From positions 37,259,732 to 37,323,731 of the forward strand of contig CM059572.1 in assembly GCA_030386875.1 (NCBI GenBank): a stretch of DNA of 64,000 bases, given 5' to 3'. Of the stretch, positions 1-62,463 are shown piece after piece (position 1 is the stretch's first letter; each line of letters starts with the position of its first letter). The notes beneath the pieces were generated by a model. It saw nothing but the letters and a program-made list of their open reading frames with translations, was not told the origin of the DNA and did not search any database. Source of the DNA: Morinoia aosen. Its lineage: Eukaryota; Arthropoda; Malacostraca; Amphipoda; Talitridae. The position numbers were made by a program, and so were the translations under genes.

Positions 1-3000
1 AGTCTTGCCTAGGCGTCATGTAAGGATCGCCTACAATAGCAGCCAATTCTTTTTCGATTGTGTCGAGAGGTCTTGAGGAACCAGAGGAGTTAGAGGCGCC
101 AGGTGTAGTTCCAACATTCTGAGGCACGAGATTAGAATTTGATGCGGACTCGAGGGTGCTTTTAGTGGATGAAATTTTTTCGGAAGATTTGTTTGAAGTA
201 CCATGTAAGCTATCGCTGATAGGAACTTCAGGCATGTTAATTTCATCACTAACACAAGAAGTCTGTGAAGCAACTCGTTCTGCTTCTGGCATTTTGTCGG
301 CTAGACACTCAGAAGTGTTGATATTCTTTGACGCACTCATGGATGTTGATTGCCACAAAGATGCTCGCTGATTTTTTAGTTCTGCCTTCAAAGGTAAACT
401 GACTTTTCTCTGAGTCCCAGAAGTACTATTTTGAACGACTGTGGATTCCACTTCATCAGATATTGTCATAGATCGCTGACTGTCTACAGAGTGATCATTT
501 GTTTTCTTGGCTTCAAGCGGCCGTTTCAGACCTTCTTGAGACAAAGTGTAACTAGGGACTTCAATAAGCATTTCAGTCGATGAGGGAGCGAGGGAAGCTT
601 GCACTCTATCTTTTTTAATTATCAATGGAGCCACTTTACCCGGGGAAAACTCAGGGACAGGGACGCTGGTGGCTTCTATAGAGGTATTGTTTAAATCAGG
701 CAAGGTAGTGGAATCTTGCGGTTTGACATGGAGAATATTTTTAGGAATTTTCAAAATTATTTTCCCTTTCATTGCATCGGAAATCATGGTCACAGGATTT
801 GAGTCTTTGTCGCTGATCGCACGAGGAGCATCGGGAAGTTCAGTCGAAGTAGAATTAGGTTGGGAAACATCTTGTGTGCTTGACTGAGAACCTTCTTTTC
901 GACATAAAACGCTTTCTGACGCACTTGTAGAAGCTTGAAGTGATAAAGTCTGGTTCAAATCAATTTGAGAATGCTTTTTCTTCTTCTTTGGCGATTTTCG
1001 AGATTTCTTACCCCCTGGGCCAAGAAAAGGGGCTGGTTTGTTAGCTTTCCTGACGCTCAAAATTTTGTTTTTATTCACAAGATGAATTTTCAAATCTCCT
1101 CCCTGAATTCTTGCAGGAGTTGTGCCAGGACCGTCGTAACTGATTCTATGGAGAGGCGTGTAAATAGGAGTAAAACTTCCATACGCAGATGAGAAGTGAT
1201 TTGGGGTGGCATTAGGTGTGCTCAGGTAACTGTAGCTTGGATCGTGCGCAGGCGTCCGGATGGAACGTTTTACTAATTTCCTTGACATTTGCAAATGATG
1301 CTTATTGGACTTTTTAGCATTCCTAATCCTGTCTGCCACTGACATGTTTTCAACGTCAGTGTCAAAATTGTCATGATTGACACCAGAAAAAGAATAATCA
1401 TCGGCATCATTAATGCCTAATGGGTCCCGTGGATTTGTCGGAAAAATGGGTTGAACATCATTCTGCAAATCTTCAACATTACTTACAACTGGCTTTTTAC
1501 ATTCAACTGGCTTTTTACTTTCAACTGGCTTTTTACTTTCAACTGGCGCGCCAGATATTTTTTGCTTTTTAGCACTCGGTTCTTCATTTGTGAAGCTATA
1601 CTTGACTCGTGAACCTGACAGAGTTCGTTTGATTGTCATTTTAAGTGGTATGTGAACTGGCAGTTTGAAACCTTCATCCATTGGTTCTGGCGTTGAATTC
1701 ACGCTCAAATCATCAGACGCGCATGTGGCAGAGGAAATTTGAGCTACGACATTCGTTAAATTGCCGTCTTCACGGGCACGTTTTGTTGCTTTTAAACTTT
1801 CAGAAGGGCTAGTAACAACAACGGCAGCTGATGCAACAGCCTGATTACTTTCGGCCGCTATAGGAATAGGATTCAATGCGTTTTTCTTAGGCCTTCCTCT
1901 TTTCTTTTTCACAGGTGATGTTGAAGATGTCACGGAGAGTGCAGAAGGCTTTTCTACTACTTGAGAAATAGACAGAGGTTCCTGAGACACCATATACACT
2001 GGAGGACCCGCTGGTGTAGCAGGCTCGTTATCGAAGAATTTTGCGTACGAAACTTTAGCAGCGCCTCTAGTAGAGCGGGTAGTTCGTGGAGTAAGAGGCG
2101 TAGTCACTTTTCGAATCCCCGTTGTTTCCGATTTCCTGGGTTTTCTAGCCTTAGAATTAGGATTCTTCATTTTACGTTTATTGATAGTTGTACTGGTTTT
2201 ACCGGAAATAATTGGCAAATCTTCAGGAAATTCCTTTATGCTGGCTTTTGTTGGAGTTTTCAGAGTCATTTTTAATTCAGGTTTTTGAAATAAGTTACAC
2301 GAACTTGTTTCGTTGTTTCTACTTGTGAGTGGTTCACTGGCAGTCCCACATGTAGAAGGTGTACTTTGTTCAACCATGTCACTATTTTCTTCTTCAGGAG
2401 GTTCAGGGACAGCACAATCAAGGGAAAATGATTTCATCTGTACGGAGGTTTCTGGTACAGTTTCTTTGATGGAAGACATTTCTATTGTTTTGAGAGGACT
2501 TGAATTTTCTGCCCCACAGTCAAAATTACTACCCAAAGGCGAAGGCACTGCGAACATGTTCGGTGGCATACTTACGGTCCTCTCAGACTGAAGATTGCTT
2601 AATGTTGAGGCTGAATGAATCCTTAAGTCTTCACTAGAAGAGATTACCGACTCCTTTACTCCGTTTCCGCAAGTACCACTAGCGGAAAGCGATTCGTTTA
2701 TATGAAGTAAATTAGTTTCTTCGTCAACCTTTTCTTGCAAATGAGAATCAGGAGATTTTGTTCCATCATCGGGCTCATGAGCACAATTGTCGGTATCTCC
2801 TATATCTTTGGGGGACAAAGAAACCTGAGATGTACAGGGAGACGCCGGCCTTGAATCGCACCCTAGCGATTTGCTGCTGTGACTAGAAGTACTATGACGC
2901 CTTCTTCCTAGTATTCGGCTGACCTTGAGATTACATGAAGAATCGACATCACTATCATCATGGGTAAGAATGACATCCTTGGTCAGCATTAATGATAGAG

Positions 3001-6000
3001 ACCCAAGACAAGAATCTTTCTCAAAGTTATTTTGAATTTCAGAGCTGTTCTCCCTTATGTCTGTTTGAGTTGTAGTTAGACGATCTTCGTTGCACTTATG
3101 ACCAAGAAAACCAGTGTCAATCAATGATTCGGGAAAAGTGTCGGATCCTGAATTGTTAGCTGACTCTTTATTTGCAGGACAAGACTTTGAAAAAGGAGGA
3201 ACACCAGAAATTGCAGAAGCATCGATAGATGAAATATCAGAGCTGGGATTCGTTCCAACAACTTGTTCAACTTGCTTTGCAAGTTGAGAATCAGAATTGT
3301 ATGAACTCAGAAAAGTCTGATTTACGGAATTGTAATCTCCACAATCATGGGAGGAAGTTATCACCGAAGAGCATGAAGTGCTTGAAGGAAGCAAAGACAG
3401 TTCGTTTTTGGTCGTCACAGGAAGATGAGGTACACTGATAATTTCACTGGCTGTGGTAACTCCCAACATTGTTTCTTTCGAAGAACCATCGCCAACTATT
3501 TGCTCTTTAGTTCCAGGCATGCAATTAACTGACGACTCAATAGCGAAGTTTTCGCTAATTACACTTCTTTCATTTTGATAGCGAGATAAGGAGTTAATTA
3601 GACTGACCTCGCTATCAACCATCTTAACACCATTTTGATCATTTTCATATGAATTCACAGAAGACGGAACTGGTTTGGAAGATTCACATTGGACTGGAGT
3701 CGAAACTGTAACACTGATAGGTTGCAAGTGAGATTGATTTTCACTCGATTCATTTTCTATACGCAAGTGAGAGGAATCAAACGAGGTAACTGAAAAATCA
3801 TGTCTATCTTGACTGCCTGTATCTTCTGGACTTTTGAAGTACGGAAAATTTTCTTGAAATGACGTGGAATCTGTACAAAAGGACTGGCTTTCAGAACGTT
3901 GCTGATCGACTGATCCTCTCTGATATCGTTTCAAGAATTTTTTCAGTCGGCTTGATTCTTCTGTGTGACCAGGTAACGCTCCTAAACCTTCCTCAGAAAC
4001 AACAGGGCCCAAAACACTATTTTCCAAATTTTTTCCAGGTATTGATGACACTAGAGTAGCGAGTGACTCGGAATTATCTAATTTAGCGTGAGTTAATTGA
4101 GAAACAACTTTCTTTCCCAGCCCTTCCAGGTACGTATTATTCATGGAATTTTCCTTAAGTTTTGGGGACACCAATGGATTTAAGGACGGAATATTGCATT
4201 CAGGATTCGGAAATAGAGGATCCGGTGCATCGTCTACAACATTAATTGGACTATCGTCAGGCGAGACCGATTTATTGAAATTATGACCGACAGAGCCGAA
4301 AGAGCCAGATTCCTTTTCATTCATGACTTGTTTATCCATGATCACAGGAATTTGAAGCCAACTACTACTCGATGGAGGGCACGAAATGACTGATGTACTG
4401 CCACTGTCAGACGAAGGATCTAACTTGCCTGATTGGTTCGGAAGCGATGCATTGAGATTAGAGCCTGAGCTGCTGCTAGTTTGGTTTGATTTTCCGGAGC
4501 TCACACGGTCAAGCTTCTCAAATCCAAGGTCTTTATTAATATTATCCATGAACTGACATGCATCATTAACACTCTGGCGTCGGTTCGCAATACTGCTCTC
4601 ATATGGCACGCTGGAATTAGGCATGAAATTTGCCGAACTGAGATTTTCATTTCGTGGAGACCTAGCATCAGCTTGAGCCGGATGTCGATTAAAAGGTCGA
4701 ACATCTGTTGGTGGTACTAGATGGTCTCTCAAATAAAAGTCTGGCCGAGTAAAATCTGCTGGTGGTTCTGTAGAGTTTTCTGAAGACTTCAACGAGTTGT
4801 AGAATGCGGAATTAATTTCCGAAGAAATGCTGGGAGTTGTTAACTGCTTAGTACCCATCACAAGGGAGAGAGGAGAAGTTTGTGTATTAGTTTCAGGGGA
4901 ACTAGAAACTGGTTTGTTTAAATTACTTTCTGGGAGAACATTCATCTTTCCTGGAATAGCTCCGACAGAACTAACACCAGTTTGAAACGGTAGAGGTGTT
5001 TTTATTGGTCGAGAAATTCCTCCCGGTTTTAAAGCACTAAAATTGGCCATCGCATGGACAGAAACAGGAGGATGATTCGATAAGCTTGGAAAATTTTCAT
5101 TTGGCCTAAAGTTGATTAGATTCTTTTTATAATAAGAAGGATCTTTCCAAGTTGTCTGTGCATCGACGGGGCACGTATTTGTGAACTCTGATTGAGGTAA
5201 AACTTCTCTGCCAATACTCTGGGACAAACAAGAGTTCAAAGGATTTACAGGAAGTTTTGATGACGGATGAGTAACAGCATTTCTTGACAGGGAATCGTCA
5301 ATTGGTCCACGTAAAAGGCGACGTATCGGATGACTGTTTCCATTGTTTGAATTAGTAGGTATCCTTACTTGGGAGGAATGGACCCCAGGCAAACTTGGAC
5401 GGTCAACTGCCAAGATAGGAGTTCCATGTCGACCAGTACTGCTTCCAGGAACATTGGAAAGAGAATGAAATTTTACAGGAGATGGATGGAAATTGTGTCT
5501 CGTAGTAAAAGTACCACTAGTTTGTTTACTTTCAAATCGGAAAGGCGTGTTGCTACCCACTAGTTGGTACGGTTGAGGTATCGCATGGTGTTCGAACACT
5601 TTGTTCACACCCGTCGACTGCATATCTGGTCTTGGAGGATGGCTGAGAATAGGTGTGGACACCCAAGATCGGTTGCCATGCTGCAAAGGTTCTGGAAAGC
5701 CGGGCTGCACAAAAGGCTGTGCTTCATACACGGGATTTGAATAAGTTTTGTGCAGTTCTATCCCAACTTCAAAGCGTTTACGGTCCATATTATTTAATGG
5801 GTGAGGAATACATTCTTGATTCGAGCTACACTGTTCTAGCACAGGCGTAGGAAGCTTTTCAATACACTCGGGACGTAATATTAATTGCTCGTGCCGTGGA
5901 GTGTCTCCTATGTTTTGACACTTAAACGATTCTCTACCATCCTGAATCTGTTTCGTCAAATTTAGTTCATGAAACCCAGACATTCCTAAAGGTGACCGTA

Positions 6001-9000
6001 GATTCGAATTTTCAGGTGATTGCAGATTTAATTCGCGTGACTTGAACATCGCTTCTCTCTGTCTTGCCTCGAATAAACGGCGATGTTCAGCTTCTTGTTG
6101 CATCCGTTGCTCACTTTCGAATCGTTGCCTTTGTTTCTCTTCACTGTTCAGAAATTTTTCTCTTCTCTGCATTTCTTTTCGTCGTTTCTCTAATTCTTCA
6201 AGACGACGCAGCTCCTCACGCTCGTTCTCATGGCGCTGCATCTCAAGTTTCTCCGCTCGTTTTCGTTCTAGAACCGCTTTTTCCTCCAAGAGTTTCTCGT
6301 GCTCGTCTTTTCGTTTTCGTTCTTGTTCAGCTTCAATGGCTCGCTCTCTTAGTAAATTTGCATCGGCTCTCTTCTGTTCAGCAATCCGCTCATTTTCAAG
6401 CATCTGACTACTCTTATGACCTAAATCGAACTCTTCTACTTTTTTCCGTTGTGGAGAAACACCAGTAGTTTTATTTTCAGAAAACACTGGTCGAGGTGAA
6501 CTTTGAACACTTGGCCTCTGACTGGAATGACCCTGAAGAAGAGCGTGCAACTGACTCAAAGGTTGACTTTCATTAGGACTTTGGAAACCTTTACCAGACT
6601 TTCTCTTATCTTCCATATACTTTTTCTCTGCTAACAACAAACGATGAGCTTCTAAACGTTTTAGTTCTTCATCTGACATACCAACAGAATTGGAAGCAGA
6701 CGAAACAACCGGCATCAAATTGGTAACTCCAGTAGCCACTGTAAAATTAGGCGAGCATGAAGGTATTCCAACAAGCTTGTCGTTTGAGGGACCAAAGCCA
6801 TCACGACTGTTCTGAGAAACACCAGCAACTGTGCAAAATGGAGGCCTTAGATATTGGGCATTCACATCGTTCATTCCTGAATTACTTCCAATGGATTTCG
6901 CTATCTCACCAGATTGCAAACAAACACTAGAAACGGCATTCGTAACGCTTCCAACAGGAACTGTTGACACGGCACTGAAAGGTGTAAGAATCCCACTTGA
7001 ATCAGAAGACGAAATGAAAATTTGTTGTGGCAATTTCCCATTCTCATTACCACTGAGAACGTTAGGGGTACTAATTGGAGTAGGCACAGACTTGCACACA
7101 TCAGCGGAAGGAACTTGAGGAGCAAAAATTTCTTCCAGAGTATTATTATGCGAGGTTAAACACACCGCCTCAGTTGGCATGTTTTCGCTCAAACTTGTTG
7201 AATTACTCAATGTGAGAGGAGTGTAAGAAACCGGCTCCGCTGAAATTTTAGGCCTTCTCTGGTGGTTGGTATTCAGTATCGGATCAGGCTTAGGGGCTAG
7301 AAGAGCTTCTTGGAGAAAATTGGTTTTCGGGTGCGTAACAGGAGTCATTTGTTCAAATGGTGCGTTTTGAATAGTAGAAGAAACAGGCGTAAGTTTTGCG
7401 TTCTGCGAATTGGCGGAGATGAATGAATTATTTTCGGGATATCTGATGACGTTTATTTCCAAAGGATTCAAAAATCCTGGTAAAGGATTACCTAAGCCTC
7501 CAATTACAGGAGTACCAACGGAAACACACAAGCCAGGCATGAATTGAGATGTGTTTTTCAGAAAATATTCTGGAGTACCTAAAGGAGGATTTGAAGAATT
7601 ATTAGGTACAGGCGAAGAGATGTTATTGACTACAATGCCTCGGTCATCACATCCGTTGATATTGCTTGTTTGTACGGAAGACCCACATAACAAACGGGAG
7701 CCAGAATCAGTACTTGACACTTGCTGCGAAACTTTTGGTAAATTCACATTAGAATTCGATGTAACCTGTGCTTGTAACACGGTTTCAGGAAGATTAGATG
7801 TGCCAGGAGGCTGAAATTGTACAAATATGGGCTGAGAGCGCGAAATGCAGGGGGCTGAAGGATTGGGATCTACAGAAATTGACACAGGAGCCACGCAAGA
7901 TGAGAGGTCAGGGATTTGTGACTGGCTCAGGAGTACAGATGTTTGTAGCTTAGTTGGTACAGTTTGTACAGCGGCGAGAGAGCCAACAGGTGAATGTGAA
8001 ACTGATAACGGTTGGTGGATCGTATAAGGAGGAATCGCAATCGAGGAACACGGGGCATTTGTACTAGGTGTAACGGAAGATGGCAAAACAAAAGAAGACA
8101 GTGCAACAGCATTTGGGATCACAGAAGAAGGGCACATTGTTTCAGATGGCAGAGAAGAATGATTAAACGAGGGAGCTGATAAACTAAGTGCATTTTCAGT
8201 GGATTGGCGATCCACCCCTGGAGCAACAGGAGAAGTGTTCGAATTGAGTGACAAAGGTGGAGAAGCCTCAACCACAGGAAATGGGTCAGACGGAATTGAA
8301 GGTAAAACAGAACTGATCACTGGAAGAATGGGTGTGACGGAACTAGGAAATGCTGACAGAGTAGTCCTGGACGAAACTGACAGGTTTGTATCAGAAGGTC
8401 CTGATAACTGGTAGTTTGCAGTAAATTCAGTACCCTGGGTACCAACTGAATTATCTGAACTAACGTCAACACCGGTTGAATTTTGCACTGATATTAAATT
8501 TTGTTCGTTGGTAATAACAGTGGCCGAGGTTGGTAAATTACTTAAATCTGGCGTTGCTGGAAGAGAAAATGATGCTCTGGAGTTAGGGGCCGAAGTACTC
8601 TCTAACGAATTCAGAGAAAAACTGGGTACACTGGCTGGTAATTTCATCGATGGATTAATAAAATCAGGTGATGTTTGAACATCAGAAGTAAGACTAACGC
8701 ATGATTCTGATACAGGTAGAGAAAGACATTGAGGTATGTTACTTGAAATAACGCCATCAGGTAAAGAGATGCTCGGGAGAGATATTTGAATCCCATTGGA
8801 GAGTAATTCTACTTTCTCAAGTCCATTATGATGCGGATGATTCTGAGTTTGTGAATCTAAGAAATTCAATGAAGCTGCAGAGTAAACTGACGTTGTAAGA
8901 CCAGTCAACGGCGTTGATCCAGTGGTAGTGTTAATCACAGTCGTAGTGTCCGTAGCACAAGTTTGGCACGAAATTGCTTGAACAGTAGTACGTAAAGAGT

Positions 9001-12000
9001 CATCAGTACCTACAGCTTCAGCATTAGGAGAAGGGGCAATTACGGTTAGAGATTCGGAGTCAAATTCGGAACCATGAAGCCCAGCCGATGCTAACGCTTC
9101 ACTCAGTACAGAAGAAATGGGAGGAGCAGGCGATCTTTCAGATTTTATTTCCGGATCAGATATTTTGGGTTGTTCAGCGTCTAACATGAAATTACCATCA
9201 AGTAGTTCATCAATGCGAGAAAGCGATGAATTATTTTCATTTGGCTCAGTTGGATTGTTCTGATTACCTGAAGCAATCACAACACTGAATTCATTGGGAG
9301 TTTCAGGTGTGTTTGAAACAATAGTCGAATTTGCACAACTAGATGGATTGGAAGTTTCTTTTACCTTCTTCGACTCATCTGTCTCCCACTGATTAAGCTC
9401 ACCACAATTGGAATACGGAGATTCAGCAGGTGGGCTAAATATGGACCTTGTTTTTGTTTCCATTTCCGGAGAGACTTTAGTAACACAAAACTGCGGCATT
9501 TGTAACATGTTTTCTTCTGAAGTAGGCGTGATAGATGCGACAGCAAGAGCAATGCTTTGGGAATTGGGAGATGACGGACGAACTTCGTTAACTTTTGGAG
9601 AACTCGCAGAATCCTTAGGAGGCTGAAATGTCTTGCAGTTGTCACCATCGGCAGTGAGGTGCGCAGGAGTTGAGCCAATTGGACTTACAATACTTTTCGT
9701 GTCCAGGTTAAAAGGTACGATGCAAGAATCTGAACTCCCAGCTTCTGGCTCGTTACGGTTTTTCAAAACTTCTAAATCATACGAATAAAATGGGTTTTTG
9801 ACAGGAGTGGCAGACGTCAGATGAGCAGGAGTTTGCGGAAGAGGGCTCATAATATCGTCCGGGATACACAACCGTTCAGTAAAATCAACTGTACTGAACT
9901 TAGAAGTAACTATCTTACTGTAATCAACTTTAGAATTTTTGTTAGAAATTGAATGAACGGGCGACTTGCCACTGAAGCTTTTAGCCCCCACTGGTCGTAC
10001 TAGTGTTGGAGCAGACGTAGAATTCTCTCTGTCAGGTGTGCTGAAGATTGAATGCATCTCCCTATTAGTTTGAGAAAAGGAACTACTGAGAGAGTTATCT
10101 CGTTTAGGTGTTCGTGGTATAGGACTCATCGGAGTTGGGATAGCGAAATACTGTATGGACGTTTCGGTGTCCACTGACGGCTCAACTGGCATAACTGGAG
10201 CATCACAATCAAACATTGCGTTGGGGGAAGCAGTTGGAGGAACAGGACTAGGGATCTTCAAGTCTCCTACATTTGACTCGGATTCATGAACAGATTTTCT
10301 GCAGCTCAAATGTCGAGGCGTCGCAGGAAAAGGACTCATGAGAGCAGGTACTTCAGTTTGGCTGATGATGCTGGAGCTGATACACTTCTCCTGATATTTA
10401 TAATCCTTTGAGTCAGAACTCAACACGAAATTATTTGCCTCTGACAAATGACTCGGTGTGGGTGGAATAGGACTAAGAAGCTCCGATTTATCTAAGTTTG
10501 TCAGAAAAGTCGAGTAACAATTTTTCCCAGAGGGTAAACGACTCCTAGGAACGTGAGAACTTTTTTCACTACAAACCATTGACTCGTCTCTTAAAGCTGA
10601 AGGAGTTGGAGGTAGAGGACTCATTAAAGAAGAGGTTGATTTACTCAAAAGAAACTTCAAATTTGGCATAGGGTCTTTCTTTGATGTTCGATCAGGTGAC
10701 ATCAATGAATCATATTTTTCACTTGGACTTGTATTATTTTTAACTATTTTTTCATGCGTTGTCGCCGATGTTGAAGTCTTAGTCTTTTTTGTATCTTCTA
10801 AATTATCACTTCGTTGAAAGTCAATGAAAGAAGAACGCCATCTTGAAGCAACATCAACATGAGTTTCTACGTTATCCTGCTCATTAGATTGAGAAATAGA
10901 CTCTTCTTCTCGTAACCTATGAACTGATTCGCCCACATTAGATGTAGTTGTTTGATAGTCAGACTTCCGTTGGACTTTACATTTTTCTTTGCCATCCCTG
11001 TGAGACCGAGTTTCCGTCAATAGTTCATTTCCGATTCGCGAATACGGCTCAGCTTTCTTTAATTTAATGTTCTCAAAGTGCTTCGAATGTTTGAGATTTT
11101 GTTGCTGATATTTGTCATGACCTTTCATTTTTGGGTTATTTCGTTGAGATACTGACTGACGATTTGGTTGTAATAACGGTTCTTTTGGTTCATGTTTTTC
11201 TCTGTGCAGTTCTAATTGTTTTTGTCCAATCACATTTCCGCTAGGCTGTTTAATAAATGACGCTTCTTTCAAATCCTTACCCGATGCTTGTGGTTCTCTT
11301 TGTGTTTTCGTGATGAACTCTTCCGAACCGCGCTTGTGACCATTTTGCGCTCTCTGTGAGTGGCGGTCAGATAATAGGTCATCCGATTCATCAAGCTGAA
11401 AATCTCGGCGATGTGCTTTTTCAGAGCGTTTTCCAACTGAAAAATCATTTTTTTCACTCCGGGCAGCAGGTCGTGCTAATTCAGGTGGCTTGGAAAGTGA
11501 GTTGAATGTCCCACATTTAGAAAATGAATCTTGTCTGCGACAAGGCGCGCGACTTTGTTCCTTACAAGAAGCCCGTAAATTTTCTTCACTTTTGGATTTT
11601 TTATTATGATGGGACACTGAAGGTTTGGAAAGTGCAAAAGAAGATTCGTTACGAGACAACGAGGAAGTGGGCTCTTCGCTATCATCGGACACAAGATCGT
11701 CATCAAAAGATTCACGTTTACTAGATGAAAGCGATGGAGCAACAGATCGTATTTCATGTGAGTCCTTTTCGATTCTTCGATTACGATGTTGAGACACGCT
11801 TTGATCTAGCAACGGTTTCATTGTAGAAGAACTCGAAAACTTTAAGCTCTCATTTCGTTTCGATTCATAGTGTTTGTGCTTTTTCTTAAATTCATTCCTG
11901 TCTAATGTATGATGCACAGATCCATGGGTAGTGCTCACGTCAGGTGAATACTCTTGTGAAAGGTCAGTTACTGTATTTTGAGCTTGGCTAGGTGCATTTG

Positions 12001-13805
12001 ATTTATGTTTCCGGCTGTCACTATTATACTTGATTAATTTCGAACCTTCAGGCTTATCAGGTCTAGAATCAGTGTTATATCTTACTGGCGAATGAGTAAC
12101 CATTGGAAAATTATCCTCTGAATGCTTTGGAGTCCCTTTTTTCTTTCTTTTAGCAATTGAATCAGATTGATTACCTCCATAGTGGTTTCCATCTGACGCA
12201 TGATTTCGATAAGACCTAGGGGAAGACTCTCTCATTGGAGGTTCGTTATTGGATTCCTCGGGAGAAGGGAAAGAATCTCCACCTGGTGTCGTTGGCTTTC
12301 CAAGATCTTCATTAAAGTTTGAGTAAGATAAATCCGGATACAAGGATGATTGCACGACGGGCACGGATGGAGATTCAGGCCTATGAGGAGAAGCTCCCGG
12401 GGTACGCGGTAGTTCGGGAAGATCACTTACATTCGAGTCATTCAGATAACACCTTGAGTCCATTCGTTTGAACGGAGTGCTTGTGTCGTTGCCGAAAGAA
12501 TCTGAGAAGCAATCTAAATTCCTACCTGGAGTTGGAGGCCTGTCTAGATTTGGAAGGTCTACTATTTCTTCAGAAAGCAGTAGTGGCGATCTCTGAGGAG
12601 CTAATGAAGCTTCTGCCAATCCAATGGAATCCGTAACGGAACGAATATTACGACTTGAAGACTCGGGACTACTGTCACTAAAAGATGAAGAGGCGGTATG
12701 AGGAGTAGGAGTACGAGGAACAGTAATACGAGTAGGAGTGCGAGGAGCAGATTTACGAGGAGCAGTAGCCCGCGAAGTAGAAGTGCGCGAAGCAGAACCG
12801 CGTGAAGCAGAAGCCCGCGAAGTAGAAGAGCGCGAAGCAGAACCGCGTGAACTAGAAGCCCGCGAAGCAGAAGTGCGGGGAGCAGTTGTATGAATAGAAG
12901 CAAGAGATGCAGGAAGAACAGGTTCAGAAGTAGCAGAATTGGCATTAATCGTATTTGAAGTAGAGGCAGACGAAGTAGACGTTATTGTAGCAGTATTAGT
13001 AGCAGTAGACGTAGATCCAGGAGCATCAGGGGGAGAATCGTGGCCGAATAATACTTTTATTTTGGCTTTTTGAGCTTCCCTTGCATGTGAAATGTCCTTT
13101 TTACCGTTCCCACCTGCAGTAGGTCTCTGCGCAGCATTGTACTCTCGAGACCTTTCACCACTTGGTCTATTCGCTTCTATTGGGCTATTCCTGCTTGGTC
13201 TATTCGCTTCTACTGGGCTATTCCTGCTTGGTCTATTCACTTCTGAGCTATTCCTGCTTGATCTATTCGTTTCTACTGAGATATTCCTACTTGGTCTATT
13301 CGCTTCTACTGAGCTATTCCTACTTGGTTTATTCACTTCTACTGAGCTATTCCTACTTGGTTTATTCACTTCTACTGAGCTATTCCTACTTGGTCTATTC
13401 ACTTCTACCGAGCTATTCCTACTTGGTCTATTCACTTCTACTGAGCTATTCCTACTTGATCTATTCACTTCTACTAAGCTACTCCCACTTTTTGGTGAAA
13501 TCCTTGGGCCCTTGTTTTTCTTTGTCTCCTTTTCTTTATTCTTATGTTTGCGAGAACGCTTTTTCTTTTTGGAACGTGATGAATTTGAAAGAGATGAACC
13601 CGCTCTATCATCTTGACTACTGATGGAAGCGGGAGATATTGACCTGTCGGCACCATGACACTTGCTCGACCGACTTGTACTCGGAACTGAAAGGGTCGTT
13701 CCACGGCCTCTCTCTGTTCCGGGTGATATGTTAGGGTGCACTTGACTATTACGAATATCTTTGCGAGGGGCTAATCTCAAAACAGAAGACTTCGATGAAT
13801 CAGAC
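1..13805 (-). CDS. REV3L: REV3L exon 12: giant linker exon, open to the left edge
   Basis: Residues 1046 to about 5647. The frame has no stop over 13.8 kb and leaves the window still open. The acceptor is CTCACCTTAG, and its phase completes the codon from exon 11. The composition is Ser/Thr/Pro/Asn/Glu-rich and apparently disordered. Landmarks in protein order: an 11-residue repeat array (about 1153-1261); an Arg-Ala-Ser repeat tract (about 1350-1420); a charged SR/KH region; eight SPxPxTP-type motifs (about 2104-2512); a Val/Ser/Pro-rich tract; a charged helix (about 3500-3640); an AT-hook-like KKKRGRPKK (about 5011); and a Lys cluster SRKSPKKKKKH (about 5310). Human REV3L also has one very large central exon, but of about 4 kb. 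The catalytic core must follow beyond position 1. Confidence 0.92.
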
Positions 13806-16800
13806 CTAAGGTGAGAAAAGCACATATAATAAACTTCAGGAGTCAACAAAAAAGTTCTATCACAACTTTCGAATCCTGATACTCGAGACGTTCATTCTCC
13901 TTCAGAGCATCAGCCCAATGATCAGAAAGGTAAGGGTAATAACCTACGCACTGGCTAGGTTCAAGTCTAACAAACGGCGCATTTGAGAACAAAGATTGAC
14001 TGCTATTCAAGAGTTTCAAGTTAAATGACTTCCTTCATAAAAAAAGCCCTATAAATAAACACAAAAAAAATGAAACAAGATAACATGATTGAGTCAAACA
14101 AACAGGACTAAAACACAGAAAAGGGCAAGGTTATCAAAAACATTATGCGTGGTAGCAGAAGAGGAAAACGTCACCAATTTGAGCTTCTGTCACCAGGATA
14201 AATACCGGTACAGCATTTTGAGTGGAAAATTGTTCCCTGAACAGATACTATTGACAACGACCGATGATGACCGACACCTACATACCATACAATGGCCAGT
14301 ATTGGAACTCAAAAATTTCCTACTGATTGTAAGGAGACTTCAAAGATCCTTTAATTAGGATCAACATATAGAAAAAGTTAGCTGCTGGGAGATGAAGCCA
14401 TTTGTGACTTGAAGTTATACACTAGACTTCTCAATTTCCCAACGTTTTAAAGAAAATTTATCATTGTTCAAATACCTAAGTTCAGTGATTCAGTGTTTAA
14501 TCTGGCTGGCAATCTGTAACCGAACACATGTCCTGCCAGACGCGGATCTAAACTTTGAAAATAGCCCTTAATTTCATTAATAGATATTTCCCATTAAACA
14601 TACAACATACCTTCGATTCGGAGGTTGTGATGGAGAAACGTACAGCTTTGGAGAGTTTTTCTTTGCTGGGGACATCTGGCGCGAGTTGGGGTCAGGGACA
14701 CGCAATTCTTTAACATGACCATTTAAATTGCTATCAGAAGCAGGGGAATCATCTTCGGCTACAACAGTGGAATACGCGGCAACGAAAGATATTTGCTCAG
14801 GGGACTGCTGGAGGTAAACTGAATCGTTCTCATCATCTACATTGTCTATGACAACGTTCGAACTTTCAATGACAGTTTCACTGGCGACAGGAGGAGTCTC
14901 TTCTTCGTGAAAAAACTCGCCAAGATCAGCCATTGACATAGCCTTGCTGACGATATCGGCCGACTGAGAGGCACCCGCTGAAGATTGCGCACTTACGCTA
15001 GGTGCGCAGGTGGGCTTTATTGCAGCATTCATGTCAAAGGATGCGCTGGCATAAGAGATGGGCTTGTTTGACAAGATAGCAGGAACAACAACAGCTTCTC
15101 CCACTCCAGGAATATCCCTTTGTTCTCTCATTTCAGGTACAGGGAGCACATTGATCCTACCAGAAGAATCTTGCAAAGACATACTCGAACTCAGATCACC
15201 AGCAGATCTCACATGATGAGATCCATGGCGGTTTTCATTCCAGTTATGCAAGTGAGTTTCTTGACGTCGTTGAGAATTTTGTTGTGCTGGAGGAGATCGA
15301 GCTTTCATTACTTTGAATATGGGCACTTTATGTTCTATATCGACTTGCTCGTTGTGCGGAGGCTGCTGTGGTTCTTCTCGTCTGTAATTAGGAGACTGCC
15401 GTTGACGAGCCCTGGGCTGACGTTCAGGATAAGGCACATTGTGGTATGAAGGCCTTTGGGGCACAGCGTGAAGATTTATATTTGGATGTCTACCCTGCGG
15501 CATATGTCTGTGACGCATGGGCCTAGGCGGAGCTTGTGAGTGATGGAACTGATTATTACTCCCGCCCAACTGTGCATTATTCGCGTCTGGGCGAGGAGGA
15601 AGATACCCCATCACAACATGGCTCCCGTCCATTGGCGAGTACGGAGGTCCACCCTGGAAGCGACCTCGAGGATGTGGAGGTTGAGGAGGGAAGCGACCAC
15701 GTTGATGTGCACGATGGTCCTTTGGATCACCATCGACCTGGTCAATGCAAAGATCAGAATCCACACTGCTTACATCAGAAAACCCATCCGAACAGTCGCA
15801 ATCAAGCCGGTCACAACAGCTGATGGTTCGATCGTTTTGTGTGGAGTCAGGTGTGACTAGATGATCATCAGTGGACGATGGGAATGCTGTAGCAGTACGT
15901 GATGTTTTTGCTATAGTGTAATGACCTTGTGGGAAGTCACTTTGTGAAAAAGCCTGTTCAGCAGCTAAATCTGGACTAGAATAGATCTCACAACGCGCGT
16001 TTTCTTCAGAACTCAGACTCGGTACTTCTGTACCACATTTTTCCACGGCGCAACACGGACCATCAGCCTGCTGGATCACATCTTCCAGGTCATGAAGCTC
16101 CACATCCCTGGAAATAAAAAGCATTTGAGATAAGTAAACAGCATCTCACTGTAAAAAAAAAAAGAAAAGTAAAGAGCTCGGAACAATTGTTGAGCGAGGG
16201 ATAAGGATTTAAATATCCTAGTCCTACAAATTCAATTGAATCGAAGACGTATAAATCTTTCTATAGAGAAGGTATAAATGAATCACAAAAAAAAGACGTA
16301 AGTACCTTACCATACATAAATATGAGCGACTCCCAATATCGTTATTACAGTCGAATTTTTGCAAGGCTTAATGAAAGAAGAACAAAAGCCTAAGTGAGAT
16401 GGCTGTCTTCTACACAGAAGCCCACACACATCGCTGACTGGTACTCACTGTGGCGGAGGTTCTCCTACACCGTCAGCTCCCGGCTCAGCGCCCTCGGTGA
16501 GCCACACAGGCTGTGACATGATCACGCTCACAGCCTCGTCGCTCTCGTCTTCACTGCCATCGTCAGGCTCCTTTGCGGGCTTGCCATACTCTGCAGCAAA
16601 GGCAACCATACTTCTCATTCACTGCATTATTTAGGTTAGTGTTTTGCAAGTTTATCATTACGTTCAGTGATTACAACCTTGCAAAAGTATTTCTTGCAGT
16701 GGACTTATGCTCAACACCCCTAAACAAAGTCGTGTCAACACACAATAACTTAATTCATTAACGCCAAAAAAGAAACGATGTCCAACAAAGAAAATATCAA

Positions 16801-19800
16801 ATATTTCTTCCAAAAATGAAACGTCTTTGCTTATCCCCACATCATTACTATCAGGTTGTACAGAATATTTTCTGGCTTCTCAATTCGAAAGATAGGGAAT
16901 GGAGTATGGAAAGTATGCTCAGTAAGTTAAGAGTTCCTCCTAACCTTTTCTGCCAGTCTACCATCACCGGAGATTGCGTTCTGGAGAAAATACCGCAGCA
17001 CAACTGGGGTCGAACCAGAGTCTTTCTCGTCTAAAGTTTGATGCCCAACCCCCTGTGTTTCATTTGAGTGAATCACCAACGCGTGGCGTTGACTAGATGT
17101 ACCTAATTCAAAGGTTGTGATATTTTCAACATCTACCATTTAATGACTCTATTGAGACAGCTGAGAGGAGGAAGTTGGATGTGTTTGAGATGAAGTGTTT
17201 GAGGAGCATGTATGGAGTAACTAGAAGAGATAGGATCAGGAATGAGTTGGTTAGGGAGCAGACGGGTGTTATCAAAAAGTTGAGCAGGCGAGTGGATGAA
17301 AGAGTGCTTGGATGGTTTGGGCATGTAGAAAGAATGAATGTTGAGCGGCTGGTGAAAAAGATTTATATGTCGGAAGTGAGTGGTCTTCGAGCGCGAGGTA
17401 GACCACGGATGAGTTGGATGGATGGGGTGCGACGTGCTTTGTATGAGAGGGGTCTGACTGTGGACGTGGCGAGAGGGATGGCTGCGGACAGAAGTGAGTG
17501 GGGGCAGTGTATAAGGAGGTAATTTTATTTTTGACGCGTTACTGGAAGCTGCCCGCGTGTGATGGGGTTGACCTGTCATGTGCGGGGGAGGGGCTGCACT
17601 CAATGAAGCGGTCGGGGTAAACCAGCTGTTGCTGTCGGGCCTGACTGTGGAAGGTGGTTGTGCTGGGCTGCTGCTGATCCTGGCAGTTCAGGTGCGGCCA
17701 GTGCTGCCTCTCTCGCCTCCTAGTGACTAAGTGTGGTGATTGTGGCCTGCTGTCGGCTACCCTCCCATGGGGAGGATAAGCCCGGTATATGTATGTACTT
17801 GAGACATTATTCCCACGCATACAAGACATTCGTTTTTTATTGCTCTACCCGAGGCCTAATTTCCAGCTAAATAAGACATGTGTTTCAAGTCTACGAGGCA
17901 GTCAGCTACATGCATCTCCAACGACTCAGAAGACAAAACCATGGAGAACTGGACTCAGCACTGAACGTCCACGAAGTACCAAACTTGCCTCGACTCCACC
18001 AACACAAACCTGATATGGAAGTGGAGCCTGAAAAAGAAGGAGTCGCGGACGCAAGGTCGTCCAGATGGCCGATCACTGAAATGTCCCCAGGACTCGCTGA
18101 CAAAAGAAGAACGAAGACTTCAGTAGGTATTTTGATGGAAAATGTGATTTCAGTGTATCGAGATTTCAGGGAAAACATCCTAAGCAGATCTGAACCGTTC
18201 CATTATGTTGTGAAGTGACGGTTCGTAAACACATACGAGCCTAGAATGAGTTGAATGTCTGCGATAGCAACAACAAAACATCATGTGAAACCAAAATGAA
18301 GAAAAGGCATTGAATTTATTAGTAAATCAATAGAGATTGCAATGGAGCAAAACCAGAGCTAAGTTTCCAAACTAAATACCATGGTGGAACAGTTGTGAAT
18401 TATGAATTTTGGTGCGCAAGAAAATTCTAATTGAGGAAGTAACTCCATGACCATCGTGGCTTACTGGGTATGAGAGTCAGCATCAATGTAGATGGTTAAA
18501 CGTAACGAAACTCAACAGTAGGAGCCCGACGTTTCTTTCCATTGGGAAGAAGAAAAAATTTAGCTACAATACCCTTCCCAACCCAGCAATTTAAAATGGG
18601 TACTAGCTCGACCGAAGATGGCCGTTTTTTATTCCTGGAGATAGTTGTAAGGCATTTTTAACACCTTTGAATAGGATGGTGTACTTTAACAAGATTCGAA
18701 TGCAGTGTTTGTAAATGACTTGAAAAACCCCCCCCTGTAAATGATTTGAAAACCAGGCTATCTGAATTATTTGCGTGGTATAAGTTTTTAGTTCCAACCT
18801 CACAAACAAATAACCACTGCAAACTGTGGTGTTATCTAGAACCTCATTGAAAGCATGCATTAGTGGCTTGGCAGTGTTAATGCACTTGCATATTATTCAA
18901 ATATTGTTTTGAAAAATTGATTCAGTGCCACCTTGTGAGTTGATGTTCATATGAACGAGTTTCTAATATAATGTATATATAATCGAAAAATTGAAAATTC
19001 ATATGCTACTTCGTTCATTTCTTTATTAGTTCAAATAAATAAACAAACACAGAAGAACAATCACGAAGAGTATTTTGAGCTGTGCTTTCAAGACCCCTGG
19101 AAAAATTTCCATAATTGAAAAATAAAAAATCACAAACTACTTAGTTTATTTTTGATAATTCGTTCAAATAAATAAACAAACACTAGAAAAAACTCCCGTT
19201 AAGTACTTTCAGAGACGCTTTCAAGAAAATCTTTCAACGCAAAACACACAGAGCAACGAGAGCTGCTGCAGTTTGAATCATGCCTCAGCACCAACAAACG
19301 ACACACAGGTTGACAGCTCGGACATGAGCAACAACCCTAACATAACCCCAATAACTCACTTGGCAGAGACGCATCCAGTTGAGAAAATGAAGCCGCGAGA
19401 TCCTCGTCCACCAAATTAGGGTAGGAAGACGCCACTGCAGCCTCCTCTTCCTCCACTTCCTGAAGCTGCTCATGTTCGCTCTGTAGATCAGCTTAGTTTT
19501 AGCATTCCCATTTTAGGAATCTGTATCCTAGATGAAACGTTGTACAGTTAAGGATGATGATGCACATGACAGATCTATGCATTTAGCATTTGCATGAAAC
19601 TTGTAGCTAATATCGGTGAACTTCAAGGAATGCTGGCTAAGCAGGGACTAAATATTACAAAATGTAAAACTAAAACTTATAGGCTTTGAATATTAAAATA
19701 TTACTATGAATACCCTGCTTCAACAACCAGGTATGGAAAAAGACTCAAATGACAAAATCAAGGGTAGAAACGTATCCTGAGTGAGAAAGTGAACATGCTT

Positions 19801-22800
19801 CATGCTCAGGATCGTCATCGGCATGTCATGCCTCACACATACTGCGAGATGCAGAAAGACAGGCAGGCAGTAAGTCACCAGAGGCAGAGAGAGGCAGTGA
19901 ACAAAGGCAGAGAGAGGCAGTGAACAAATGCAGAGAGAAGCAATGAACAAACTCAACAAAGGCAGAGAGAGGCAGTGAACAAACTCAACAAAGGCAGAGA
20001 GAGGCAGTGAACAAATATAGAGAGAGGCAGTGAACAAAGGCAGAGAGAGGCAGTGAACAAATGTAGAGAGAGGCAGTGACCAGAGGCAAAGAGAGAGAGT
20101 GAGGCAGTGACCAGAGGCAGAGAACACAGCACTCACCGCAGCACAAGGAGGCAGGAGCGCGGCAGGCAGTTGCGGCAGCGTGGCCGGGTGCGGTAGTGGC
20201 GCATCAGGAGGTTCGCTGGACGGCCGCACCACGTCTCCATCGTCTCCAGACAGGAACTTGATTTCGTGTTGCCGCCGAGACTGCATAAAGTTTTAAAAAT
20301 TAAACCATTTGTGATTACTACACCTAACACGGACACATTTCTTCTGAACAATGAAGTATTTAAATGGCATTTCTTAAAGCATAGAAAATAAAGAATCGAC
20401 TGATCAAAGGCTTGAAACCATAGCTCCCTTGCAGTAGATCTACCATGGCTTCCTTCCAAATTGCTTGACAAAAATGCCATCCACTGCACAATTCCAAGAA
20501 TGAAAGAACGTGGCAAGTCCCCAGTGAAAAAGCTCGAAAGGGACACGTGATAAAAAATGCCTCGACACCAAAGCCATTACAAATGGTCTCTACCGTATTA
20601 CTTATTGCTTCACCATCCATCGTTCAGCCTTCCAGTGTAAGTGCACTTCCGAAATACCCACATCTCATTCTATCCATTGTAAAGAATTGCCAAAACTTTG
20701 ATTTCAGTGCTAAGTGCCAGTAAACAAACCATCTGCGATTAACTTTTTTACATAGCGAATACGTCAAGTACGCAATGTAGCAAGCAAGCTTGCTCTTTCC
20801 CCAACTTGATATTAGCAAAAAAAATTCGGCAGCCTAACGATAAGACACATACTTAAAGATATGAAAAACCTATGCAAGTAGCCACCACTGCTTTAAGAGA
20901 AAGTACACAGTAATCTAGCCAGTAAAATTGGCGCTTCTGCTGCTAAGCTCATGCGAGAAATACTTGCCAATGTTTTGTAGACTCAAATGATTCACCTGGA
21001 TTACAGCCTTTGCCAACTGCATAAAATATCTTTGTGAGGGCGAGGGTTGCACATTGGGTCGAGGTGGAGAGTCTGGGGGGAGGAGATCTGAAATAGACGA
21101 GGGAAGAGGAGATGAAGGCTCTTGGTCCGCATTTTTCTCTTGACTTTCATCTTGGTCTCCTTGCGGAGGACAATGCCTTTTGATACCTCGCTGCTGACGG
21201 CGCTCTAGTTCGTCTTCCCAGATGTACGAAAGACCTGGGTTACTTGACACTCCTCCTGGAACAACAGTTGCAATCAGTATGACATATCATCCTTTACTAG
21301 GATATTGACTCATAAGAAGACTTTGTTTCCACTTTTTTGAGTTGGGGTTGCTGCCTAGTACCTGAAAGCCTGATCCAAAATAGTAACTGCAAAAAATTCT
21401 TCTATTACTGAAGCGTTGGTTGTAGTCGAATTACAAATTGGCTTCAAAAAGGCAGCTGCATAAACCTCGCTCAACAGCAAGAGCCTATGAATATGGATGT
21501 GTGTTCCAGTTGCTCAAATACAGTAACTACTCTAGCATCAACAGTCGGCCACAAACACAAGAGGAAAGTCGTGTTAGTGTCCCACGTTTATAAGAGATTA
21601 AATTTAAACCTAAAAAATTCCTACGAATTTCACCTTGACCAGAGACTTCTGGCAACACGTCATGACCTTGACATGGAGGCACTCTCATACCATGAAATAT
21701 TTCTGCAGTAGTTTGCAGTAAATAAACTCTAATCTACATGGCTTGAATATAATCTAAAATAACTCCATCATTGATGCTTCTCAGCTTGAGAATGAAAAGC
21801 AAGGCAAAAAAATCGCTACACGTAAAGTCATTTCTATTAAAAATGATCAAATAAAACTGAACGTTTCGGACTGTCCATCTTCAGCAAAAAATCTCTGTAA
21901 AACGAAACCAAAAGAGGAAGAATTAATACACTAAAGTAGTAATTAATTGAATTTAATTAAAACTTAAATTATTTCCAGTAATACGCACAGGAACAATGTT
22001 ACGAAAACAATTCACTGAGTTATACACGAGAATGGAAACACGCATTCAAATGGAGAAAAGGTGTGCGACTTATTTGCAAACGCGGCACACCAAGAGTGTG
22101 GAATTAGTTTCAGATCGTTGTGGTCGCCCTTCAACGGACTAAAGGGAAATCATTCGCTCAGCAGCTAATTCCCCAAGCCATGATCAAAGCTCCATGTATG
22201 TAACAGCAAGTTGCCCATGCAAGGCTCTATGACTTTCTGTAAAACTAAAAATATTGTACTGTTCAAATTGAAATATTAAAATCATAGCCTATGCCTCGCT
22301 TTTAAGCATTTGAAACGTGTTGTATTAAGGCTAGCTAGTAACTACAGCTCTCTTGCATGCGTGGAAACGGGAAATAGACCAATTCCTGTCATCTATGAAC
22401 GTATCGAACGATAAAAGTAATGGCATGAACAATGCAACACTCTGGCAGCAAAAAAATAGGCAACCTCGTTTTTCCGAAGAAAAAGTTTCATGAAAACAGT
22501 AGTTTTTTGTTATTCATAGAATAATGCTTATGAAACACCCCTTTATTCTACGTGATAGTTAAATTTTTCATTAGTTTCAATACTAATTGCTCAACTGGAG
22601 GCAATATAATGTATGAAAAAGAGTGCGCAACTGCAAGGCAGAAGCCAACAGACGAGCTGGCCAGCAACACACGCACCTGCCAGCTGCACAGGGTTGAGTA
22701 TCTCCTCGGCCTGCACGTCCACCTCCAGCTCACAGCTCGCCTGTCGCTGCACAGTCTCCGGCAGGTAGCCCGCCAGCCTCTCTATGCTCTCGGCGTCCCA

Positions 22801-25800
22801 GTACACTGAAGATGCCTGTCGCCAACAGAGCTTAGTTAATGCCACATTGACAATGCCTGTCCCCAACACAGGTTAGTTAATTCCACACTGATGATGTTTG
22901 TGACCAACACAGGTTAGTTAATTCCACACTGATGATGTCTGCCCCAACATTGGTTAGTTAATTCCACACTGATGATGTCTGTGACCAACACAGGTTAGGT
23001 AATTCCACACTGACGATGCCTGTCGCCAACACAGCTTAGTCAATGCCTGTCACTAACACGGGTTAGTTAATCCCACACTGACGATGCCTGTAACCAACAC
23101 AGGTTGATCCCTTAACGTCGGCATTTTTGTCACTCATGTTTCCGCTCTCACAACCACCATCACTAGCTGGCACTAGCATCAGGTTGTCACAGACATCAGA
23201 ATGAGGAAGGAACTGCAACTCAGCAGTGAACTTCACGGAACATATTAGGGAGAAAATGTACAAGAAATGAAATATCTTTGTTACTTAGGCAGAGGACCAT
23301 ACATTTATATAGGACATTAGCTAGTAATATGCAGGTATAGATCCATTGCTGCCAGCACATTTTAGTGTGAGGGTTGTGCACGTGTAGATCAGCTCTAGCC
23401 GTAGATACAGATCTAGTCTGGTAGGAACCTTAGAAGCAACACTTTCATTCTTCATTACCACATATGTAGTGTAAAACACACTCACTATACAGTTAAAAAA
23501 TCAGAGTAAATGCTCGTCGTCACCACAAGCATCGACATTATTACAAGTCGGTATAAGAAAAAATAGTTTGAATCTTATTGAAGATTTCATGTTAACCTCA
23601 GGAGCCATAAACTTGTACTTTCCGTCATCCGTACACAACGTAACAACATACATACTTGAACAAACTCATCCTGCTTGGCGAAGAGCCCTGTTTCCCATCA
23701 ACTGCACCTTTCTCCCAATTGTTCATGATGTCGAGAAAGGTAGGAAAGTATATTCAACATCCAATCAACCGTCACACTTGCTTTGTGATTCACGTTCAGC
23801 AAACATTGGTCTAATACCTAACACACACATTTTTCCTATCATAGCAGGCTTGCCTGTAGCATTGCACAGGATGATGCTCTTCACAACTTTCAGCTTGTTC
23901 ATCAGAACTCGATTTTTTTATAAAATGCCTCCACCTAAACAGCGTCATCAACTGCAACATTCACAGCTACCCATTCACTGAACTTGAAGCATGATGCAAT
24001 CCACTTCGAAATATTCCTTAATATCAGCTTCAACTTCATAGGAGGAATCAAATCGCCGTTCACCCAACGCAGGGTCATCAGAATAGAATCAATCAACAAC
24101 CCCAAACCTCTGGGACTTCACATCGTCAAGATGCTCATTATAGGGCGAGTCGTGTCTCTTCTTCCAGCACTTACGTTCCACACATAATTGTAAGAATTTT
24201 AACTCCTATTACCGTTATTACAACCACGGTCATTAAGACTGGCTCTGGTATCAGGTTGTCAAGGATATCATAATGAGAAAGGAACAAAAACTAACCAGAG
24301 AACTTCAAACTAAACCATAAAATATAAATTCAGCAACAAATATAAGAACATTTTTGAAGTGTCCAGTATAGTTTGTGGTGCAGTTGAGGGTTAAGAAACA
24401 CAGAGATGCTGAATGGCCAGGCCACAAAATTAATTATAGTCGGAGGAGGTAGCTCCTGCTACAGCATACTGCTTACATACACATTATATCATCATTTCAT
24501 TTACGTACACATCATCTCACAGCTCTCAACAACATCCCTATATTCTATGCACACTGAAGACAACTGTGCTAACCCTCATCATATACCAAATGGATAAACA
24601 CACATAAAACCAACACCTTAAAATGAAGCATACACGAGACAGTCTAAATTGTTTCAATATCACAATACTGATGACTCTGAGCCTTTTCAGTTGAATACAC
24701 AGAGAAGAGTGACGGCTTTGTAAAGCCAAGTCAATATTGAGCACACACAGACGTTCAGGTACGGGCACACAAATGCGCCAAGTTCCTCACCTGCTGAGAG
24801 GAGGGTGTAGGGTTCTGGAGTGCACTCTCCAACCATAAATTAGGTTTTGGTTCTTGATCTTCACCTAAATCAGGAACGCCCACAGGTCGGCCTGTCGAAC
24901 ACAGAGAGAGTAAAATCCTAAGCAAATACTAGGGAATTATCGTCGTTTTTCTTCTTCAGGAATGTAAACCCATGCTAAGCCAAATAAACATTCTGCGATG
25001 AAAATAACACAGAAGATGAACTTTATGAAGAGCCTAACTCTTGCATTATTTTATGGCTGAGGCAACATGGAAAACGAAAATGTTTTTTTCAAATTATAAC
25101 CAACATTAGGCATACGTAAAAAGCAGAGTAACTGCAGGCACTTTTTGCTCTACAAGAAGGCACAATCTACTCCGAAAATTTTTGGAATACGTGACAATGA
25201 AAGCCAAAAAAAACTCCTGAACAACCATCCCCTGACAGAAGGAAGGCAGAAAAAGGCAAGAAAACAACAAAGCTATTAAAATATAGCGCTATAACGTTAA
25301 CTGCGGTTGGCTGAACTTTAGTTTAATACTCAATTCGAACAGAGATCAGAATGAGCCATTAATTGATTTTTATTAACTATACGCCAAAACGTAGTGAGCG
25401 ACCACCACCAGTCAGTCACGCCGTGTAATGAAAATCCTTTCAGTGACCCATCCCCTGTACATAACAAACCATTAACTAATCGCCTGTAGGTAACAAACCA
25501 TCAACATGTCAATGAATTAGGAAGCCTACATCACTGAAACAACTCTGCCACACAACACAAAAGCTGCCAGCAGCACCGCAAGTCCCACACAAGGCCCCCA
25601 AGAGCTGCATTTGTCCTACATGATCGCTAGCAACACTCGACAGCCTCACGTACAACTACAGAGGCATCAGAGCGAGGCACTGATCCAAGTCATGAGCCGA
25701 TCACACAAGCAAACACAGCGCATGTCTGCCAACATTTTAAAACTAGTGAAATTAAACTCTATAGCGTAATTTGGCAATGATTCATACAAAAAGATAAAAA

Positions 25801-62178: not shown

Positions 62179-62463
62179 TGAACTTGTTTATATTTTTTGT
62201 CAGTGCAGCTCAATGCCTCTATTCAGGTATAGGAATATAAATACATTCTCGTTGCATCGAATATTCAATTAATGTAAAGCTAAATGTGTGAAAAATAACA
62301 TTATAAATAAGTTCTTTGGAGGCAGAAAAGACTTACGTTTTTAGCGTGAGCGCTTAGCAACAAGAAAAATAATGAATTGAATAGCAATGATACATAATGC
62401 GTATCACTGAAAAAATGCAGTTAAGTTGAGTCAAGAAATGATTTAGGTGCGAGGTGAAAAAAC

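Follow-up and report, generated by a model that had tools for sequence, protein, structure and literature searches.

The stretch of DNA analysed here, referred to as the window, comprises 64,000 nucleotides from the talitrid amphipod Morinoia aosen (GenBank assembly GCA_030386875.1, contig CM059572.1, here C17, positions 37,259,732 to 37,323,731) and carries on its minus strand the 5' part of REV3, the gene for the catalytic subunit of DNA polymerase zeta. Together with 70 kb of the same contig examined to the left of the window, in an assembly of 1.99 Gb, it yields a gene model of 34 exons; once spliced, these encode 13,135 residues in a single open frame that stops in the last exon, for a calculated mass of about 1.42 MDa. 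Exons E1 to E11 and most of a giant exon, termed A, are located within the window, and left of exon A there follow, on the same strand, a small exon C, a second giant exon B, and 20 exons (K1 to K20) with the polymerase-zeta core; positions to the left of the window are given as negative numbers. As two giant exons encode the linker between the N-terminal domain and the core, the modelled protein has a length of about 13,000 amino acids (aa), roughly four times that of human REV3L. From the sequence comparisons described below we consider it probable that exon A is a coding exon of REV3, and that the insert of this protein has grown to about 11,900 residues, mainly through exons A and B.

Exon A starts at an acceptor at 13,805, and its in-window part (1..13805, minus strand) comprises 4,601 codons. 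The uninterrupted frame of this length which a first-pass annotation had described is borne out, as no stop occurs on the minus strand from 13,805 to 1, and a stop-to-stop scan of the window extends the stop-free run to 4,630 codons (13,891 to 1). That the frame runs off the edge of the window had also been seen correctly, since the exon continues to window -2156 (C17:37,257,575) and measures 15,962 bp or 5,321 codons in total, within an open frame of 5,374 codons. For the full exon, base composition alone gives a log10 P(no stop) of about -139, the two remaining frames of this strand contain 549 and 260 stops over exon A, and the only other frame of at least 300 codons in the window, with 522 codons, is REV3 exon E11. 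Tandem repeats account for 589 bp of exon A, among them an in-frame array of 33-bp units (13160..13490, minus strand) with 10 copies of SRNSSVEVNRP. Further features on the same strand are a 'RPPTPG / LPRTPG' block (12392..12544) with 40% identity to an N-terminal REV3 protein from the shrimp Penaeus (E 0.001), an array of six [MVLI]SPxxxTP motifs (9659..10627), and the best-conserved stretch of 60 residues (RSIRTPAHDPSYSYLSTPNATP..., 1088..1267, from residue 5,168), which shows 83% identity in a three-way comparison of amphipods. A piece of 308 residues taken from the position of this last stretch has a single match in the genome, which is itself. In the in-window part of exon A there is no Pfam match at E<=1 beyond a sub-threshold AT-hook, and no match to DUF4683.

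All exons upstream of exon A are encoded on the minus strand as well. E1 (30631..30814), whose start codon is either at 30,814 or 12 bases further on, contributes to the REV3_N domain and over 47 aa is 48.9% identical to REV3L of Limulus and Amia, and E2 (28692..28866), E3 (27822..27915), and E4 (26170..26299) were modelled from tblastn searches with the same two proteins. E5 (22677..22805) and E6 (20996..21255; NPGLSYIWEDEL) each have an Amia match at E 0.002, to which similarity to Penaeus is added for E6; the 5' border of E5 is uncertain, and a small exon between E4 and E5 is possibly missing. E7 (20137..20280), E8 (19360..19480), and E9 (18010..18096) are phase-consistent models with weak similarity, in the case of E7 to Penaeus, and in E10 (16449..16590) ESDEA..MSQPVW aligns to ESDED..MTQRIW of Penaeus. 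The first linker exon, E11 (14611..16107; 1,497 bp), holds a block (DIPGVGEAVVVPAILSNK) common to Penaeus (42% identity over 33 aa, E 0.001) and ends in a donor of phase 2. The N-terminal exons match REV3_N (E 4.5e-16) and then POL3_N (E 7.1e-22), both above the curated cut-offs, so that conserved REV3 exons are present upstream as had been claimed, and they are followed by exon A in the correct phase (2-2 at 14,611/13,805).

To the left of exon A, and likewise on the minus strand, exon C (window -3820 to -3913) has 94 bp and exon B (window -15193 to -32210) has 17,018 bp or 5,673 codons, with a frame of 5,686 codons from stop to stop. The phases at the remaining junctions agree too (A/C 1-1, C/B 2-2, B/K1 1-1). 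For the introns from B to K20, frame-keeping donor-acceptor pairs were tested against the Trinorchestia catalytic protein P0004, borders of E1 to E11, of A and C, and of B on its 5' side were placed by eye, and all donors chosen in the model are GT. The core part begins near residue 12,245, which means that the more than 5,600 residues which the first-pass annotation had placed before the core were a large underestimate, and the insert between the N-terminal domain and the exonuclease domain comprises about 11,900 residues (about 325 to 12,244).

By the sequence of both its ends, this locus is REV3, the gene for the catalytic subunit of DNA polymerase zeta. The last exons match DNA_pol_B_exo1, DNA_pol_B, and zf-C4pol of Pfam, and the possibility that the gene to the left of position 1 might lack a polymerase is contradicted by a PF00136 scan, which finds same-strand DNA_pol_B exons some 52-55 kb to the left of that position; in the spliced core the match to PF00136 reaches E 3e-93. 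DFQSLYPSI occurs at residue 12,581 and YGDTDSMFV at residue 12,746, which we take to be palm motifs A and C of B-family polymerases. The C-terminal cysteine modules (CysA/CysB) match PF14260 with E 2.2e-15, and the exonuclease domain PF03104 is matched only from profile position 135 onward. Compared with solved structures, the spliced core scores 600 bits with yeast polymerase zeta, 290 with delta, and 93 with alpha. Protein searches covered lengths of about 2,546-8,100 aa for exon A, about 1,016-3,232 aa for the core, and about 2,316-7,369 aa for the N-terminal exons, ranges in which a database protein of 13,000 aa would be missed, and only the best-sharing candidates were scored (1,474, 7,986, and 1,758, respectively). 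The comparison of the catalytic part with known proteins, which had been proposed as a check, places it closest to Trinorchestia, krill, and then vertebrate polymerase zeta, and most of the named proteins among the 120 listed of 3,310 matches are DNA polymerase zeta. No second polymerase-zeta core was found in the genome among the best 40 of 12,643 candidates scored with the catalytic part as query, whose other matches fall in a low-complexity stretch of the query (about residues 131-260). Exon K2 (window -33725 to -34253) contains ETPISRA repeats; similar low-complexity open frames, up to 2,067 codons long, occur on C13 and C18 and at other places.

Homologs of exon A are encoded in two other amphipods, Trinorchestia longiramus (P0002, 5,120 aa) and Hyalella azteca (P0003, 3,391 aa), the only matches at E<=0.01 among the candidates scored. 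Identity amounts to 62% over 4,700 aligned residues in Trinorchestia and to 40% over 3,089 in Hyalella, and the peptide SLG-QTPNY, which spans the A/C junction, is present in P0003. Judged by these identities, the species of the window would be nearer to Trinorchestia than to Hyalella. P0002 runs from the A/C part into a DUF4371 (PF14291) stretch, probably a gene-prediction join to transposon-derived sequence. The best match to the N-terminal exons, within the length range searched, is P0124 of Penaeus chinensis, a protein of 2,939 aa annotated as 'mucin-4-like' that begins with REV3_N and POL3_N and continues with the block of E11, the RPxTPG block, and the SPxxxTP array, which follow one another as in M. 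aosen. P0124 looks like the N-terminal part of a REV3, and this kind of mis-annotation may recur in decapods. Shared blocks, given as amphipod/Penaeus residues, are 805-837/900-931 (E 0.001), 1409-1459/1549-1602 (E 0.001), and 2090-2253/2447-2594 (E 0.008). Six [MVLI]SPxxxTP copies in exon A compare with a mean of 0.08 in shuffled sequences and nine in the Penaeus protein with a mean of 0.04, the maximum in 2,000 shuffles being 2. Among 124 other fetched family proteins, nine have one copy and none has two or more; exon B has one copy, and Hyalella P0003, which starts downstream of the array region, has none. It is on the order of the blocks and on the motif counts that the link between exon A and Penaeus rests, because the E-values are weak and a profile of the whole exon gives a null result.

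A second likeness, over 24 columns, exists between the 3' end of exon A and the linker of vertebrate REV3L (YKDTLFTLSYLTPR versus YVDVMSKLGYLSER; E 0.0044, probability 7.8%), with a score of 32.6 against 30.8 for the best block shuffle and none of 300 shuffles as high. This similarity is weak and seems supportive as a lead, not a proof. Homology of exon A to the full DUF4683 was dropped, as the profile match covers just these 24 columns. Also rejected was the idea that exon A might be an array of REV7 sites: the relaxed REV7 pattern has no match in exon A, for which reason the SPxxxTP array is not classed as REV7 sites.

For exon B it is the 3' end that is shared most widely. Its last 412 residues (11,601-12,012) match 121 of the 125 fetched family proteins at E<=10 and 110 of them at E<=0.01, with lobster P0042 as the best match (2e-19) and with 7e-14 for fish, 2e-13 for krill P0005, and 2e-8 for Amia; there is no match in Limulus P0075, and Tribolium P0032 reaches just E 0.042. 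The Trinorchestia catalytic protein P0004 begins within this end. Near the end of the exon, YICYKFSPP at residue 11,679 provides one match to a relaxed REV7-motif pattern, with Y for the first P and Cys at the long-aliphatic place of the REV7-binding core; for yeast, an excerpt of PMC11276120 gives Y in place of the first P of this core. A second site, LATLKSPPS at residue 11,772, is devoid of the first proline of the motif. The relaxed pattern also matches VVRPSSEPP at residue 341, probably by chance, as well as VLIYTPPPP and VLTPLNEPP in krill and VLTPVKPPP in lobster. Just upstream of the REV7-motif match, [DE][FY]xP repeats are located in exon B (window about -30600 to -31060), and counts of this pattern are 5 for the last 700 residues of B, 9 for the first 220 of lobster P0042, and 7 for the first 320 of krill P0005. 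A HORMA-domain scan of the genome, in which 4 candidates were scored, did not reveal the REV7 gene; the single exon that it gave at E<=0.001 (C4:103924133-103924273) looks, by eye, meiotic-HORMAD-like rather than like REV7.

Much of exon B consists of tandem repeats, about 8.1 kb in 12 arrays with up to 74 copies after removal of overlapping rows. The repeat periods are divisible by 3 in 4 of 4 arrays of exon A and 12 of 12 of exon B (one period being 3 itself), and in 11 of 24 cases in non-exonic or mixed stretches (2/2, 1/5, 4/7, and 4/10, where the E and K stretches include small exons). Repeat growth that preserves the frame would be the simplest account of the size of exon B.

One frame extends over 34 exons, the junction phases agree, and REV3 domains are found at both ends; conservation, frame-preserving repeats, and the order of blocks in the shrimp protein favour, at the level of sequence, the retention of exon A. 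Several observations weigh against this assignment or against details of the model. The donor of exon A has a low score (3.4, as compared with a median of 8.4 for the donors of the model), and strong donor-like sites are not significantly depleted within A (4 versus 5.1 expected, 123 of 300 synonymous shuffles being as low) nor within B (3 versus 6.5 expected, 30 of 300 being as low), so that missing cryptic donors were abandoned as proof that A and B are retained. An in-frame ATG is situated 20 bases ahead of the exon A acceptor, within the stop-free extension, and an argument that exon A is devoid of any start codon had to be dropped on this account. In Hyalella and Trinorchestia exon A is annotated as a protein of its own for which no REV3_N or DNA_pol_B domain is given. 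The E-values of the Penaeus blocks are just 0.001-0.008, and repeat-to-repeat matches of exon B and K2 to shrimp reach 2e-4. A profile of exon A from the three amphipods, used in an hmmsearch of 125 proteins, misses Penaeus and finds no convincing match (best P0044, E 0.51), and BLASTP of exon A against the 120 listed relatives of the core gives none at E<=0.01. Finally, E5, E7-E9, and K2 have uncertain borders, drawn from weak similarity or by eye, and Penaeus carries about 45 residues between E4 and E5 that have no counterpart in the model, the length of which is, at a guess, right to within a percent or so.

The weak donor of exon A and the lack of significant depletion of strong donor-like sites would fit a situation in which both giant exons are real, yet for the most part skipped or spliced internally, such that REV3 usually has an ordinary size, the form of 13,000 residues being a minor isoform. 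Transcript variants exist for human REV3L as well, according to an excerpt of PMC4699697. However, the conservation of exon A among amphipods and the blocks shared with a decapod suggest its translation in a useful fraction of the products, and the conserved linker end with its REV7-motif match lies inside exon B, which could therefore not be skipped as a whole without losing the linker end. We regard it as unlikely that the long form is such a minor product.

The stand-alone annotation in the two other amphipods, the ATG ahead of the acceptor, and the near absence of Pfam matches might instead indicate that exons A and C together form a gene of their own, in the same orientation and nested inside a long REV3 intron, and that REV3 splices from E11 to B or to a later exon. 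That the exon A profile finds no REV3 protein, the one from Penaeus included, slightly lowers our confidence in exon A as a part of REV3 and raises that in a nested gene. Nevertheless, the phases fit on both sides of exon A, the donor phase of exon C fits exon B, and the shrimp protein joins a REV3 N-terminus to blocks like those of exon A and to the motif array with their order kept, and a weak profile match over 24 columns links the 3' end of exon A to the vertebrate REV3L linker. Furthermore, the first Met inside exon A is its residue 449 and is located within a block common to Penaeus, which implies that the coding frame starts before this residue. In view of the phases and the shrimp protein, exon A as an unrelated gene was set aside, and we judge a nested gene to be distinctly improbable. 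That the long frames are an artefact, due to an assembly error in repeats or to a decayed gene copy kept open by chance, seems very improbable indeed, for although some 8.1 kb of exon B are tandem repeats in which assemblies may gain or lose units, frames that stay open over 5,374 and 5,686 codons do not arise by chance, exon A is conserved and poor in repeats, the frame is maintained in the arrays that were found, the core has its polymerase motifs, and the genome scan yielded no other polymerase-zeta core among the 40 of 12,643 candidates scored.

With exon A as a coding exon of REV3, an architecture can be proposed for the protein. If, as in yeast polymerase zeta, its N-terminal domain is folded back onto the core, the linker of about 11,900 residues would loop out as a disordered tether. 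This linker is rich in Ser, and hydrophobic residues make up 24% of A and 15% of B as compared with 37% of the core. The SPxxxTP array would probably serve as a docking platform subject to multi-site phosphorylation by proline-directed kinases, a function we favour because the motif, the most prominent repeated element of the linker, pairs Ser-Pro with Thr-Pro and because exon A is free of the REV7 pattern. The end of exon B may function in REV7 docking, and much of the extra length of B might have arisen by in-frame growth of tandem repeats in a region tolerant of length. By analogy with known REV3 proteins, the linker is most likely a disordered, phosphorylation-rich tether that ends in REV7 docking, and, as the first-pass annotation had suggested, we infer that it could be a scaffold for other repair factors. 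A broader proposition, which we hold to be evenly balanced between right and wrong, is that the Malacostraca evolved a mega-REV3, translated here as one chain about 13,100 residues long (about 1.4 MDa), in which an SPxxxTP phosphorylation platform regulates or scaffolds translesion synthesis and is followed by a REV7 dock. Such a gene would have been overlooked because annotation splits it into 'mucin-like' and 'uncharacterized' pieces. We know of no larger catalytic subunit of a DNA polymerase.

Other features surround the gene. Upstream of E1, a frame of 113 codons (33019-33357, minus strand; MGPKKVSAKDNSDRKK...) resembles a transposase helix-turn-helix by eye, and a minisatellite with units of 22/68 bp (62461-64000) extends over about 1.5 kb and past the window's right edge. 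Immediately beyond the REV3 stop, a multi-kilobase tandem array (window about -62644 to -68211) has long open frames in more than one frame.

A natural REV3 four times longer would allow the purpose of the insert to be addressed directly. Amid thousands of residues open to loss or duplication, the long form singles out a few shared blocks, namely the SPxxxTP motifs, shared with shrimp, the end of the linker, shared with most REV3 proteins, and the block at residue 5,168, shared among amphipods. Also, as crustacean REV3 genes are annotated as unrelated pieces, polymerase zeta could come to be reported falsely as missing or truncated.

In kind, a long REV3 linker is known. As far as the available portions of the sources go, REV3 proteins have a large insert between the N-terminal and the exonuclease domains (PMC6895278), the N-terminal domain packs with the polymerase core, the insert holds two REV7 sites, and the large human exon adds an insert with many stretches of predicted disorder (PMC6895278, PMC11276120, PMC7181697). 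According to an excerpt of a review, one exon encodes the insert, and variation in it between species leads to large differences in protein size. The yeast protein (PDB 7lxd, 6v8p) shares the catalytic core and is the best solved relative (E 5e-179); it has 1,504 residues with the insert at 282-658 (PMC6895278, in part), close to the figure of about 1,500 quoted by the first-pass annotation, whose value of about 3,130 for human REV3L is equally accurate (3,130 residues in the same excerpt). REV3L of human and other vertebrates has the same domain order as the amphipod protein and a large insert before an inactive exonuclease that is encoded mainly by one outsized exon, which in human is exon 14 with 4,162 bp and 1,386 aa (PMC4699697 and PMC6895278, in part), and the end of the vertebrate linker is matched by the amphipod exon B end, whereas the 3' end of exon A is matched just weakly by profile. 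The comparison of REV3 lengths that had been called for gives 4,650 aa for the longest of 5 matches to the N-terminal exons in the range searched, namely P0125 of Mactra antiquata, annotated as REV3 and about one third of the modelled length. Unlike the present model, the database model of Penaeus P0124 stops before any exon B or polymerase part, and in other amphipods the exon A homologs (Trinorchestia P0002 and Hyalella P0003) and the catalytic half (P0004) are recorded as unrelated fragments. By title, no report of a giant crustacean REV3 was found in open-licence full texts, a scope outside which most of the subscription literature lies. What differs here is the scale, 13,135 residues versus 3,130 in human or about 4.2 times the human length, together with two giant exons (15,962 and 17,018 bp) in place of one outsized exon.

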